Positions 23,740-28,631 of a stretch of 64,000 nucleotides of DNA are shown piece by piece. Positions within the stretch are counted from its first letter, which is position 1, and each line of letters starts with the position of its first letter. The notes under the pieces were generated by a model. It saw nothing but the letters and a program-made list of their open reading frames with translations. It made no database searches and had not been told where the DNA came from. The DNA lies in NCBI GenBank assembly GCA_030145715.1, contig JAIXHQ010000012.1:1-64000 (forward strand). Reading direction: 5' to 3'. This stretch comes from Sphingopyxis sp. GTDB lineage: Bacteria; Pseudomonadota; Alphaproteobacteria; Sphingomonadales; Sphingomonadaceae. The position numbers and the translations under genes were made by a program.

Positions 23740-26589
23740 TCAGAATTTACCGCGCAGCGTCACACCATAGGTCCGCGGTTCGGCCAGGAACTGCGAGAAG
23801 ATCTGACGCCCACCCGGATATTGCGGGTCGGAGAACGCACCAGACACCCCGCCTTCCTGGAACGGCGAGTTGAACGCGACCTGGGCATATTGCTTGTTGA
23901 AGATATTCTGTCCCCAGAATTCAAGCCCCCATTTCTCATCGGGACCACGGATGCCGATGCGCGCATTGAATATCGCATAACCATCCTGCCCCTTTTGCGG
24001 GAACAGATCCGAACCGGTGTTATAATCGCTGGTCATGCGGCCATCGACATAAACGAGACCCGACATTCCGCCGCTGCCGATGTCGGGGGTCCAGGCAACG
24101 CTGCCGGTGGCGACCAGTTCCGGCGCGTTCGACAGATTATTACCGGGAAGCAGGCGCAGCGCCTGATCGAGCGGCGCGCCCGAAGCGGTGCCGACCAGAT
24201 CGTTGCGATACTTCGTCCTGGCGTAGGTCAGCCCCGCGGTCATGCGGAAGCTGCGCGCGGGAACGAGCGAAGCTTCGAGTTCGAAGCCTTCCGTGCGGAC
24301 GCCCCAGCCCACCCTGTCTGCGGCGCATGCGCCAGTAGTGGCCGCGGCCGGATTGGTGTTCGCCGGGGCGCCAGGAATCGGTACGCCGCCCGCGGTGAAT
24401 TTGTTCTGGTCGCGATCGCCGCCATTCAGGCTGTCCTTGCAGCCATTGACATTCTGCACCAAGAACACGCTGCCGTTAAAGGTGTTGAGTTGGAAGTTTT
24501 TGAAATCGGACCGGAAAAAGGTGATGCCGACGCCGAATGGGCCAGTCGAATATTTTGCGCCCAACTCATAGCTGTTCACCAGTTCGGGGTCGAACTGTAG
24601 ATTGCGAACCAGAGCCTGGGCGCCACCGACCTGTGCAAAGGACCAAGTTGGAACGCCGCCGACAACCTGGATCGGATTCTTCAGCGCCGAGCGGTCGAGA
24701 TTGAACCCGCCAGCCTTGTATCCGCGCGCGAAGCTCCCGTAGATCATCAGATCGTCGACCGGCTTGTATGACAGGATCGCAGTACCCGTCCATTCATCCT
24801 CGGTTCGGCTATCGTTAATCGAAACACCGTTGAGCTCAGCAGTCGAATTGCCCTGACAGGCAAGGCCGATCAGACCCGCCGACACGGGCTGCAGCGATGC
24901 GTTGGTAAGGAAACCTCCAACCGCGTTCTGGACGTTGACGCACGCCTGATTGTCATTGGTAAAGCTTGCCGAGAATTTCTTCTTGTCGCGCGTGTAACGT
25001 ACGCCCAGCGTCAGATCGAGCTTGTCCGTGATATGCACGATATTATGCGTAAACAGGGCCCAGTTGGTTCCATTCTGGTAATAGCGATCATTGATGCTCC
25101 CCTTGTCGCTGATGCCGTCAAGCTGATCGAGAGCGCCGTAAATGGCGGGTGAAGCCGCGCCGAATGCGGGCGGTCGCGCCGCAACGCAACCGGGCGAAGT
25201 GGGCGAATAGAGGCCCGCCAACGCGCCGCCCGAAATCAGGCGGCAAGCGGCGAACCGGCCATATTGCGTACCGAAGCGCAGATTGTCGCGAACAGTCAGC
25301 TTTTCATTGGCGTAGAAACCGCCAACCAGCCAGTCGAGCTTGCCGTCGAACGCTTCGCCTTGCAGCCGCAGTTCCTGCGTAAAGGTGTGGAACTGACGAT
25401 AGGCATCGTTGCTGGGCGCGCGATACAGAATGTCGACCGACCCATAGTCGAGGTCACCCGCCTGACCCGAACGATATTGGCGATAGCCGGTGATCGAGGT
25501 CAGCGTCGCGCCGCCAAAATCATAATCGATCTGGCCCGAGAAGCCGTAATCCTTGGTCTGTCCGGCAAAGCTGCGGCCGGGGCTGACCGAAATATTGCGG
25601 CTGTAACCCTGGTTGAACGCCGCCAGCGGCTGGCCGAGGTCGCGCAGGACGTTGATGATATTATTACCATTGGGCTGCGGCACATTCGGCTGTGGGGTTC
25701 CGCCCGGTCCGACCGACAGCGGCGTCGACGGATTGTTCAGATTGCCTATATAAGGATTGACGCTGCGGTCGATATAGGTCGCGCCGCAGCATTTTTCGTC
25801 ACGGAACGTATAATCGGCGATCAGCCGGATCGAGAGGGCGTCGGTCGGTTCGAACAGCAACTGGCCGCGCAGGAAATAACGACCGCGATTGTTGACGTCG
25901 GTGTTGTTCGTCGTGTCGCGAAGAAATCCGTCACGCTTTACCCAGACACCGTCGATCCGCGCCGCCAGCTTGTCGCTGATCGGGCCGGTGACGCTGCCGC
26001 CAAGCCGCCAATAGTCATAATTGCCATAGGTGATTTCACCGTTGGCGCCGAATTCAAAGCTCGGCTTTTTCGAATAAACGCTGATGAGGCCGGCCGACGA
26101 GTTGCGACCGCCAAGCGTGCCCTGCGGGCCCCGCTGGACCTCGACGCGGTCGATTTCACCGAGTTCGTTGAGGCCAATGCCTGAGCGCGAGCGATAGACA
26201 CCGTCGATGAATACGGGAACCGAGCTTTCGAGACCGGGATTGTCGCCCACCGTGCCGATACCGCGAATGCGCGCCGAACCATTCGCTTCCGAACCTGTGG
26301 AGGAAACGAACAGCGACGGCGCAACCTGGTTCAGTTGGCGAATGTCATTGGCACCGCTGTTTTGCAGCGTTTCGGCGCTGACCGCCGAAATGGCGACTGG
26401 CACGTCCGACAATAACTGGGCGCGGCCCTGTGCGGTCACGATGATCGGTGTATCGTCGCTGTCGTCGGCCGTGGCAGCCGCAGTTGCTTCCTGCGCGAAA
26501 GCCGGAACCGAAATGGCGGTCAATGCGATCGATACACCGAGCGCGCTTGTACGCAGAAAATAGGCGGCACGAAGGGAAGATGATTTCAT
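23740..26589 (-). CDS. TonB-dependent receptor
   Basis: A 949-residue outer-membrane receptor. A signal peptide (about 1-33, ending SVPAFAQ) is followed by a TonB box-like TPIIVTAQ, a plug domain (DVPVAISAVSAETLQNSG, then RIRGIGTV and RVEVQRGPQGTLGGRNS) and a long beta-barrel ending in RTYGVTLRGKF with terminal Phe. ATG 26589 is used because AGAGGAG lies eight bases upstream. The large size and N-terminal style are those of sphingomonad receptors for iron chelates or carbohydrate and aromatic compounds. No catabolic or siderophore gene is adjacent, so the substrate is unknown. An adjacent cysteine pair (DEKCCGATY) lies in the barrel. Confidence 0.95.
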   Translation of the reverse strand: MKSSSLRAAYFLRTSALGVSIALTAISVPAFAQEATAAATADDSDDTPIIVTAQGRAQLLSDVPVAISAVSAETLQNSGANDIRQLNQVAPSLFVSSTGSEANGSARIRGIGTVGDNPGLESSVPVFIDGVYRSRSGIGLNELGEIDRVEVQRGPQGTLGGRNSSAGLISVYSKKPSFEFGANGEITYGNYDYWRLGGSVTGPISDKLAARIDGVWVKRDGFLRDTTNNTDVNNRGRYFLRGQLLFEPTDALSIRLIADYTFRDEKCCGATYIDRSVNPYIGNLNNPSTPLSVGPGGTPQPNVPQPNGNNIINVLRDLGQPLAAFNQGYSRNISVSPGRSFAGQTKDYGFSGQIDYDFGGATLTSITGYRQYRSGQAGDLDYGSVDILYRAPSNDAYRQFHTFTQELRLQGEAFDGKLDWLVGGFYANEKLTVRDNLRFGTQYGRFAACRLISGGALAGLYSPTSPGCVAARPPAFGAASPAIYGALDQLDGISDKGSINDRYYQNGTNWALFTHNIVHITDKLDLTLGVRYTRDKKKFSASFTNDNQACVNVQNAVGGFLTNASLQPVSAGLIGLACQGNSTAELNGVSINDSRTEDEWTGTAILSYKPVDDLMIYGSFARGYKAGGFNLDRSALKNPIQVVGGVPTWSFAQVGGAQALVRNLQFDPELVNSYELGAKYSTGPFGVGITFFRSDFKNFQLNTFNGSVFLVQNVNGCKDSLNGGDRDQNKFTAGGVPIPGAPANTNPAAATTGACAADRVGWGVRTEGFELEASLVPARSFRMTAGLTYARTKYRNDLVGTASGAPLDQALRLLPGNNLSNAPELVATGSVAWTPDIGSGGMSGLVYVDGRMTSDYNTGSDLFPQKGQDGYAIFNARIGIRGPDEKWGLEFWGQNIFNKQYAQVAFNSPFQEGGVSGAFSDPQYPGGRQIFSQFLAEPRTYGVTLRGKF

Positions 26590-26748
26590 ATCGGGCACTC
26601 CTCTCAACATTTCATTATTTTTGTTGCAGGAGGAGCATAACTCAATTGCGCGACCGATCCAGCCGGGGGCCTGTATTTGCGTCGTTTTTAACTATGTGAT
26701 GCTTTTTAGCCACAGGCTGAAACATATCAGACCGGGAATGGCCAAATC

Positions 26749-27453
26749 TCAGGCTCGGTTCGCCATCGCGGTATCCGGAACGCCATTTCCGCATGGGAAA
26801 CAGAGCCGACGGCCCGCCGCGACCAGCATGGCAGCATAGGGTCCAGAAAAATTTCGGGCGATCACAGGGTCATCGACCCCAATTCCGCCCGTCAGGCTGC
26901 CGAAGGCAGGAAGAATCAATCGCTGCGCATCGCCCGCAAAACAGGGGCGCGAAACAAGTCGGCCGCGCACATGAATGCGTATCTTGGGATGGAAATGCCC
27001 TGAAATTTCCGGCCTTGTTTCCCGAGCCATGCTCTGGTGACGAAAGACGATACCATCGATCGTCAATTCATCCGCGATTTCGCCGCCCCACGCACCGCCG
27101 CTGAGACCATCATGATTGCCTGCTATCCACAGCAGCTTTGTCGACGCAGCCTGCCCGAACAGACGCGCCTTGATCGTCGGCGCAATGCGATCCGCGGCAT
27201 TGCGGTCATGAAAGCTGTCACCGAGACACCAGATGGCACGTGCGCCCGTTTCGGCGACGAGCGCCGCCAGCCGATCAAGTGTGTCGTGGCTGTCATAAGG
27301 TGGGAGCGGTTGACCGTGCGCAGCAAACCAACTCGCCTTTTCCAAATGTAGATCAGCGACGATCAGGGCGCCGTGCCGCGGCCAGAACAACGCCCGGTCG
27401 GCCAGCATGTGAAACTGCTGGTCCGCAAAGACAAAGGACGGCGCGGCGGACAT
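26749..27453 (-). CDS. pdeM: Ligase-associated DNA damage response endonuclease PdeM
   Basis: A 234-residue calcineurin-like phosphoesterase. The metal-binding motifs are VADLHLEK, LGDSFHD, AGNHDG and SGHFHPK. These match PdeM, the nuclease usually encoded beside an Lhr-type helicase, a DNA ligase and an exonuclease in a bacterial repair module. ATG 27453 starts at the usual position; a GTG at 27483 is an alternative. Here a protease gene lies between pdeM and the helicase gene, all on the same strand. Confidence 0.9.
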   Translation of the reverse strand: MSAAPSFVFADQQFHMLADRALFWPRHGALIVADLHLEKASWFAAHGQPLPPYDSHDTLDRLAALVAETGARAIWCLGDSFHDRNAADRIAPTIKARLFGQAASTKLLWIAGNHDGLSGGAWGGEIADELTIDGIVFRHQSMARETRPEISGHFHPKIRIHVRGRLVSRPCFAGDAQRLILPAFGSLTGGIGVDDPVIARNFSGPYAAMLVAAGRRLCFPCGNGVPDTAMANRA

Positions 27454-27504
27454 GGCGCCGCTATGGCGGCTCCCACTGGGCACGACAAGCCCTGTGGCTC
27501 ACGG

Positions 27505-28551
27505 CTATCCGCCGCTCGCGGCAGCGTTCGACGCCATGCGCTGCAACGCCTGCCGATCGGCGCGATCCGGCAAATCGAAAACGACGCGCCTGTTCGGGAA
27601 ATCGATTTCTACCCGATCGAACAGCGACAGACTGTCCATGCCCAACAGCAGGGCCGGGCGATCAACAAGCCCCAGCGCCCGAAAAGCCTGGCTGTCAGCA
27701 AAGCTGACCGGCAGGTCGTTGACATCCATACCGTTGATCGTGATGCGGCGGATCGCCGTCCGGGCAGCGGAGACAGCCTCACCCGTCACCGCCGTCAGCG
27801 TCGTCGGCACGAACGGCAGTCGGTTGGCCCGCCGATCGGCGACCATTTTCTGCAACGCGAGATTGCCGACGCTCGTTTGCGCGCCGGTATCGACGATCAC
27901 GTCGACGCGTTTGCCGTCGAGCCGTGCGTCGGAAAGGATCAATCGGCCGGCCGCATTGCGCGCGGTGACAATGATCGCATCGTCGTCACGAATAATCGGC
28001 CGTGCCCGCATTCTGGTTTCCAGAATCTGCATGGTTTCCTTACGGAAATCGATCAGGATGCGCCGCCTTTCGAGCATATCGACGCCGATCAGCCCGGCCG
28101 CGCCAATATGCCGCCCCGAAAAAGCAGGCGCTTCGAAACCCGTCATCTGCAGGTCGGTCATCTGTAGCATCGCGATGCGAAAACTCTGCACCGTTGCCGA
28201 TCCTCCGATCGTCGCAAGCCGCAATTTCGTGCCTTCGATCAATCCCAGGCGGTCGGCGAGTTCATGGGCAATCACGGTACGTTCGGCGCCGGTATCGACG
28301 AGGAAAGAAAAAGGGCCCTGCCCGCCGACCAAGACTTTCACCGCCATGCGCCGCGTTGCATCGAGGTCGAACGGCTGGACCGACGGCACGACTTCGCCAG
28401 TCGCGGGATCGGCAATCAGGTCGGCAGGATGCGAGAGGTGAGGCGACGCCGAAGCTTGAGGCGACATCGGCATTGGCGAGGCAGCCGCCAGCATCAGCGG
28501 AGTGGCAATGAGCAGAGCCCAAAGCGGCGAACGCACGGCGACATGGGTCAT
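27505..28551 (-). CDS. Secreted double retropepsin-like aspartic protease
   Basis: A 348-residue protein with an N-terminal hydrophobic segment (LWALLIATPLMLAAA) that may be a signal peptide or anchor. Two aspartic protease domains follow. The first has FLVDTGAERTVI (Asp about 86) and GLIGVDML. The second has VIVDTGAQTSVG (Asp about 221) and LLLGMDSL. Single-domain retropepsins work as dimers; two copies in one chain could pair within the molecule, as in pepsin. ATG 28551 places the hydrophobic stretch near the start; an ATG at 28596 is possible. It lies between the helicase and pdeM genes and may share their transcript; I see no obvious link to DNA repair. Confidence 0.82.
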   Translation of the reverse strand: MTHVAVRSPLWALLIATPLMLAAASPMPMSPQASASPHLSHPADLIADPATGEVVPSVQPFDLDATRRMAVKVLVGGQGPFSFLVDTGAERTVIAHELADRLGLIEGTKLRLATIGGSATVQSFRIAMLQMTDLQMTGFEAPAFSGRHIGAAGLIGVDMLERRRILIDFRKETMQILETRMRARPIIRDDDAIIVTARNAAGRLILSDARLDGKRVDVIVDTGAQTSVGNLALQKMVADRRANRLPFVPTTLTAVTGEAVSAARTAIRRITINGMDVNDLPVSFADSQAFRALGLVDRPALLLGMDSLSLFDRVEIDFPNRRVVFDLPDRADRQALQRMASNAAASGG

Positions 28552-28631
28552 GGCGGCATCCTCGATTTTCCTTGGATCATACGCCTCTGACAGCATCGCA
28601 TCAAGCTGTGCCAGAAAGCCGCCGCGACCGC

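Follow-up and report, generated by a model that had tools for sequence, protein, structure and literature searches.

The gene at positions 27505..28551 on the minus strand of the window (the whole stretch of 64,000 nucleotides that was analyzed, from contig JAIXHQ010000012.1 of Sphingopyxis sp.) codes for a two-lobed aspartic protease of 348 aa, as indicated by its reading frame, by Pfam and by alignments. Sphingopyxis sp. is a soil and water bacterium. With moderate confidence we consider the product an aspartic endopeptidase of the Asp_protease_2 / gag-asp_proteas group, with two lobes in one chain, that is exported via Sec and acts in the cell envelope.

Sequence features and family of the protease

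The reading frame starts with the ATG at 28551 and its stop ends at 27505. There is a second in-frame ATG at 28596, 15 codons upstream; the close homologues in our alignments share the ATG at 28551. All the features described below lie, like the gene, on the minus strand. By hydropathy and sequence, residues 1-25 (28477..28551) resemble a signal peptide. They are followed by two retropepsin-type lobes, delimited by Pfam and by AlphaFold2 models: an N-terminal one at residues 64-178 (28018..28362) and a C-terminal one at residues 192-326 (27574..27978). The first lobe carries the catalytic motif DTGA at residues 86-89 (28285..28296), which reads on as DTGAERT, and the second motif G-V-D at residues 156-158 (28078..28086). 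In the second lobe the equivalent elements are DTGA at residues 221-224 (27880..27891), reading on as DTGAQTS, and G-M-D at residues 304-306 (27634..27642). The secondary structure of the models predicts one hairpin in each lobe, at residues 108-121 (28189..28230) and 248-263 (27763..27810), in the positions where flaps would be expected.

The profile searches agree with this division. Two stretches of the protein match gag-asp_proteas PF13975 (86.7 bits, cut-off 28.2), two match Asp_protease_2 PF13650 (81.6 bits, cut-off 24.3) and one matches the retroviral protease family PF00077 (35.2 bits, cut-off 20.7). The scores for PF13975 and PF13650 are far beyond chance, and both models match all 43 of the 43 homologues examined. 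Curated Pfam cut-offs are thus passed and, together with the DT/SG motif and a second motif of the hydrophobic-hydrophobic-G type, place the protein among the retropepsin-like proteases of clan AA. The initial annotation had proposed two retropepsin domains in a single chain, each half complete-looking with its DTGA and its second motif, and this is what we find. Its description of the second motif as G-[LM]-D is exact for the second half, the first half having GVD instead.

Assignment to narrower families gave mostly negative results. The best NCBIfam model was TIGR02281, with a score (51.2 bits) under its cut-off of 57.95. The protease does not belong to TIGR04120-04123 and matches just two other NCBIfam models at E 0.01. 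With 14.3 bits for NF038019 (cut-off 150) and no match to PF20729, it does not fall in the PecA / PE-PGRS_C group either. The Pfam family A1 (Asp) matched neither the protease at E 0.01 nor any of the 43 homologues at E 0.001.

The two aspartates of the DTGA motifs are conserved throughout. In an alignment of 27 rows, with identities down to 21%, D86 and D221 are among ten invariant columns (27/27 each), and D158 and D306 are kept at 90% or more. In a second alignment of 43 rows, where the other sequences are 37-78% identical to the Sphingopyxis sp. protease, the invariant residues (43/43 for both aspartates) were D86, T87, G88, D158, D221, T222 and G223, with D306 nearly so. Some distant relatives have DTAA in place of DTGA in the N-lobe. 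Since both aspartates are invariant, we infer that catalysis would be carried out by the D86/D221 pair, and judging from the sequence the protein is likely to be an active protease.

Predicted structure

The AlphaFold2 model of the full chain, built from the 43 rows, had a pLDDT of 80.7 and a pTM of 0.71, with low values over residues 1-66 and the tail. When restricted to the core (residues 63-330) the values rose to 89.8 and 0.85, the chain being modeled as one bilobed unit in which the lobes do not lie apart. Using VIA-align, the core superposed over both lobes on four known structures. For 9IY9 of Bacteroides fragilis this gave a Z of 18.6 with an rmsd of 3.4 A over 244 residues, and for the tethered HIV-1 protease 1LV1 a Z of 16.3 with an rmsd of 3.2 A over 192 of 198 residues. 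Renin reached a Z of 16.2 (rmsd 3.5 A) and rhizopuspepsin one of 16.0 (rmsd 3.8 A), each over 238 residues. The superpositions of the full-length model agree with these. The alignments by Foldseek were looser, with an rmsd of 4.9 A for 1LV1 (TM 0.55 by query and 0.72 by target) and of 4.8 A for 9IY9 (TM 0.69 by query and 0.46 by target). Foldseek also matched the Rv0977 domain 4EHC (E 3.1e-6).

Since a tethered dimer is matched by the two halves simultaneously, the prediction is that their DTGA loops come together. The sequence and the predicted model together describe a bilobed aspartic protease, that is, two lobes in one chain with one catalytic-type aspartate each. It had been suggested from the sequence that the chain could form an internal dimer like those of eukaryotic pepsins, and the models make us highly confident in a bilobed internal dimer of this kind. 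Each half would fold as one retropepsin lobe, the lobes would pack against each other, and D86 and D221 would form a single catalytic dyad under the two flap hairpins, as in the tethered HIV-1 protease and in pepsins. This pair would hydrolyze peptide bonds.

Comparison with known aspartic proteases

Bilobed single-chain aspartic proteases are already known in bacteria. The best structural match, 9IY9, is a putative endopeptidase of B. fragilis annotated as 'Exported protein', with the same bilobed single-chain fold. The profile of the protease family matches one of its lobes (E 1.2e-7), although it differs in identity (13-15%) and length (420 residues, the aligned part being 167-437). Among the papers listed by our literature search there was none on this structure. 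PecA and the C-terminal domain of PE_PGRS16 (Rv0977, PDB 4EHC), both of mycobacteria, likewise have two aspartate motifs per chain. Passages of a report on them describe PecA as a surface protease and both domains as bilobed (PMC6819658). PecA has a PE domain and is secreted by the type VII system, in contrast to the Sec-like signal of the Sphingopyxis sp. protease.

Other relatives have a single lobe. At the level of lobes there were matches to DDI1 and to the Rickettsia protease APRc (5C9F). These two and the HIV-1 protease are one-lobe proteins that dimerize, whereas here both lobes are in one chain. The model TIGR02281 also has one domain instead of two, and its members, single-domain clan AA proteases with DTGA, are presumably COG3577 under another name. 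Single-lobed bacterial aspartic proteases are described in parts of a paper on APRc that also mention PerP and SpoIIGA (PMC4140852), and COG3577 is given as another such group in a section of a second paper (PMC2642776).

The pepsins of family A1 are bilobed as well, with one aspartate per lobe, and superpose on our model over both lobes. According to sections of PMC2761423, the bacterial members of A1 (Rawlings and Bateman 2009; the shewasins) are predicted to be intracellular. The exported RloA proteases of Pseudomonas belong to a different Pfam class according to their authors, in a portion of PMC12239564. Our search of the literature, mostly of papers available without subscription, found none, among at most the 20 best papers listed per query, on this alphaproteobacterial bilobed group or on the gene order helicase-protease-PdeM.

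Gene neighborhood in Sphingopyxis sp.

On the minus strand the protease gene is preceded by an Lhr-type DEXH helicase of TIGR04121 (28632..31040; 1055 bits, cut-off 850), with 80 bases between its end and the start of the protease. It is followed by PdeM of TIGR04123 (26749..27483; 222 bits, cut-off 150), whose start lies 21 bases (GTG at 27483) or 51 bases (ATG at 27453) past the protease stop. The next gene in the same orientation codes for a TonB-dependent receptor (23740..26610), identified by Pfam and by comparison of loci as part of a block kept in Sphingopyxis. Lhr and PdeM belong to the ligase-associated DNA damage response cluster (TIGR04120-04123). The other two members are elsewhere in this genome, the ligase (TIGR04120, 778.9 bits) on contig C53 and the exonuclease (TIGR04122, 450.4 bits) on C67; a short end of the exonuclease adjoins the ligase on C53. 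The repair cluster is thus incomplete at the protease locus. Of the DNA repair operon in which the initial annotation placed the gene, the two flanking genes are present here, but not the ligase and the exonuclease.

In a scan of the block we found three promoter-like sites (1.5 in shuffled sequences) and three terminator-like sites (4.7 in shuffles), so that no promoter or terminator signal there was clearly above the shuffles. The gene would probably be transcribed together with Lhr and PdeM. Two more Asp_protease_2 matches were found in the same genome, at C28:8918-9166 (plus strand, in a frame of 361 codons) and at C7:78107-78367 (minus strand, in a frame of 201 codons).

Gene order across genomes

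We have examined the conservation of this arrangement at several distances. Within the genus, the gene was present in 34 of the 35 Sphingopyxis genomes searched (its own genome excluded). PdeM was the next gene after the protease at all 34 loci, and Lhr was located upstream within ~6 kb at 30 of them. A second set of 80 loci, which overlaps the first, contained 43 close ones (65% identity or more). PdeM came next in 42 of these, the contig of the other ending 63 bases on. Lhr was found in 36 of the 43, and five of the seven without it have between 42 and 307 upstream bases. Among the 37 more distant loci, 27 were linked to Lhr and/or PdeM and ten were unlinked, two of the latter (L180 and L187) having less than 800 bases downstream.

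At the family level, 159 of 199 genomes had a homologue of the protease (E 1e-10 or better), and PdeM and Lhr were each found over their cut-offs in 182. For linkage we used the 150 matches listed for each of the three genes, although more matches exist. At least 46 of the 150 protease matches listed (43 of 141 genomes, 22 genera) had a listed Lhr and/or PdeM no further than 8 kb away. Among the matches listed, Lhr was always upstream on the same strand (42/42) and PdeM always downstream on the same strand (36/36), both being present for 32 proteases. The remaining 104 had no listed Lhr or PdeM nearby. Hence the order Lhr-protease-PdeM is far from unique to this strain, since it appears in a single orientation in at least 22 genera, even if most of the members listed are unlinked. 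At the level of the class, 46 of 190 genomes gave a match at 1e-5, single-domain proteins counted too. Among 72,556 plasmid records there was one match at E 1e-5 (37% identity over 76% of the query).

A tree of 73 chosen rows (67 distinct), made by a quick method, placed 36 linked rows together and the rest mixed, its starred branches forcing at least four changes between the linked and unlinked states. Inheritance would thus largely explain the linkage. The best fit to these sequences would be an old position that was inherited, with losses or repeated arrivals.

Additional genes are also found around the protease. In eight of the 27 linked distant loci, peptidase genes of the M19/M20 types are found between Lhr and PdeM on the same strand, examples having been confirmed by Pfam. 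In seven, the protease has as its neighbor an S9 peptidase encoded on the other strand (L157 and L170 being loci without Lhr), and in seven as well a TrhO rhodanese, again on the opposite strand (L154 being a locus without PdeM). Five of the 27 have none of the three. Signal-like starts were recognized by eye in the M20 and M19 of L165 and in the S9 of L155. At L237 (G080), the matches to Lhr, M20, M19, the protease and PdeM are consecutive on one strand between 114 and 6942. In the wider set of loci the inserted genes include, besides TrhO, unnamed ones and others that, from their N-terminal letters, we take to be GST-like, Kup-like and MgtC-like. This variety rules out a 'peptidase island' in which every gene inserted between Lhr and PdeM codes for a secreted peptidase.

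Tandem pairs of two-lobed protease genes were found at L197, L198, L199 and L203 (genomes G267, G399, G258 and G257, respectively), at L233 and L236 (G147 and G210) and at L184. In G147, G210 and L184 the pair is located between Lhr and PdeM. On contig C98 of G337, a distant alphaproteobacterium, five single-domain retropepsin-like matches appear in a row (at 664, 1602, 3124, 4002 and 5035), in frames of ~150 codons.

Probable export and possible functions

The N-terminus of the protease has a hydrophobic core with a mean hydropathy of 2.25 over 11 residues, compared to 0.82 in Lhr and 1.22 in PdeM. Its residues 1-25 contain no cysteine for a lipobox. A hydrophobic N-terminus was also found in 64 of the 78 homologues with a start located (from the 80 loci), 14 failing this crude test, and in three of 38 PdeM proteins with a start located (from 68 loci); the test considers hydropathy alone, with a crude choice of starts. 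Export of the protease, presumably via Sec, is likely on these features. Its site of action would be outside the cytoplasm, and its most likely role that of an envelope endopeptidase engaged in protein or peptide turnover. Peptide turnover, as opposed to a dedicated processing role, is a tentative choice that we would put at somewhat under even chances. The M19/M20 dipeptidase neighbors are a hint in this direction and may also be there by chance.

A rather unlikely alternative, if one to be taken seriously, is a dedicated processing protease whose substrates would be one or a few proteins of the envelope or surface, cleaved at fixed positions, in the way that PecA acts on PE proteins and that PerP is thought to act on PodJ in Caulobacter. 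The characterized exported or surface aspartic proteases of bacteria are in fact processors, at least as presented in passages on PecA (PMC6819658) and in the sections on APRc that mention PerP and SpoIIGA (PMC4140852). Besides, PF20729, the PE-PGRS C-terminal peptidase model, matches one of the 43 homologues. The TonB-dependent receptor, which comes after PdeM at all 34 loci of the genus and at 42 of the 43 close loci of the second set (the remaining one stops at a contig edge), might be taken as a substrate. However, at 60% identity or more this receptor appears in only three of the 37 distant loci, and no candidate substrate is kept alongside the protease across genera. Neither do Lhr and PdeM have an export signal by hydropathy.

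The neighborhood could also suggest a protease that cooperates with Lhr and PdeM in responding to DNA damage, given that order and orientation are constant in at least 42 pairings with Lhr and at least 36 with PdeM. We regard this as very improbable because of the export-like N-terminus, of the distant ligase and exonuclease, located on other contigs, and of the genomes in which the genes are apart. Of the 117 genomes in which both the protease and Lhr are listed, 40 have the two genes close together, and for the protease and PdeM the figure is 34 of 119. Among the matches listed, Lhr and PdeM are separated by no more than 12 kb in 48 genomes; a listed protease is found near Lhr in 30 of these, and 18 have none there. 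The linked state also appears from the tree to be largely inherited. The reservation already expressed about a repair role for a secreted protease is therefore well founded as far as its putative signal goes. Finally, it is extremely improbable that the chain is not self-sufficient, with two chains pairing lobe to lobe or the protein being a non-catalytic binder: retropepsins normally consist of two chains (as parts of PMC2761423 put it) and the lobes here differ past the motif (DTGAE vs. DTGAQ), but the two aspartates and the two second motifs persist even in deeply diverged homologues, and in the model of the single chain the lobes pack against each other like those of tethered dimers.

The envelope endopeptidase that we favor would have been mostly inherited in place and would have no direct role in repair. 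Its function may well be routine envelope proteolysis. The repeated position between two repair genes raises in turn a question of co-expression that can be tested.

Origin of the two lobes

The two halves of the protease can still be aligned with each other, by BLASTP (31% identity over 106 residues, E 5e-4) and by profile (96.6% probability, 26% identity over 90 columns). The lobes of the A1 pepsins, in contrast, are reported in portions of PMC2761423 to resemble each other only in the motifs of the active site. We built a tree of N and C lobes, 21 of each, together with 8 single-domain proteins, all from Alphaproteobacteria. The 21 C lobes fall on one side of a branch with a support of 94/86, which is not starred. 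Because they cluster in this way, one old fusion may predate several subfamilies, and such a fusion would fit the tree. The N lobes did not form one group: three changes were needed, a single group appeared in 0% of 200 bootstrap trees, and one long-branched N lobe (L206) was placed beside the C lobes, although a single N-lobe group was not rejected by the test (p 0.34). Similarly, N and C lobes together were not one group against the single-domain proteins in the best tree, and such a group was not rejected (p 0.41).

It is an old question whether pepsins arose by the fusion of two retropepsin-like halves, and where. That the exported bilobed retropepsins are a surviving bacterial form of the duplication and fusion thought to have made pepsins is very improbable in our view, and we lowered its already small probability slightly because the N lobes were never grouped in the bootstraps. 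If pepsin lobes were to root among those of the bacterial bilobed proteins, the duplication that produced pepsins would be bacterial. In any case, these proteins share the two-lobed architecture of pepsins and their halves can still be aligned, and the same class also contains single-domain relatives, so that the fusion step itself becomes accessible to comparison.
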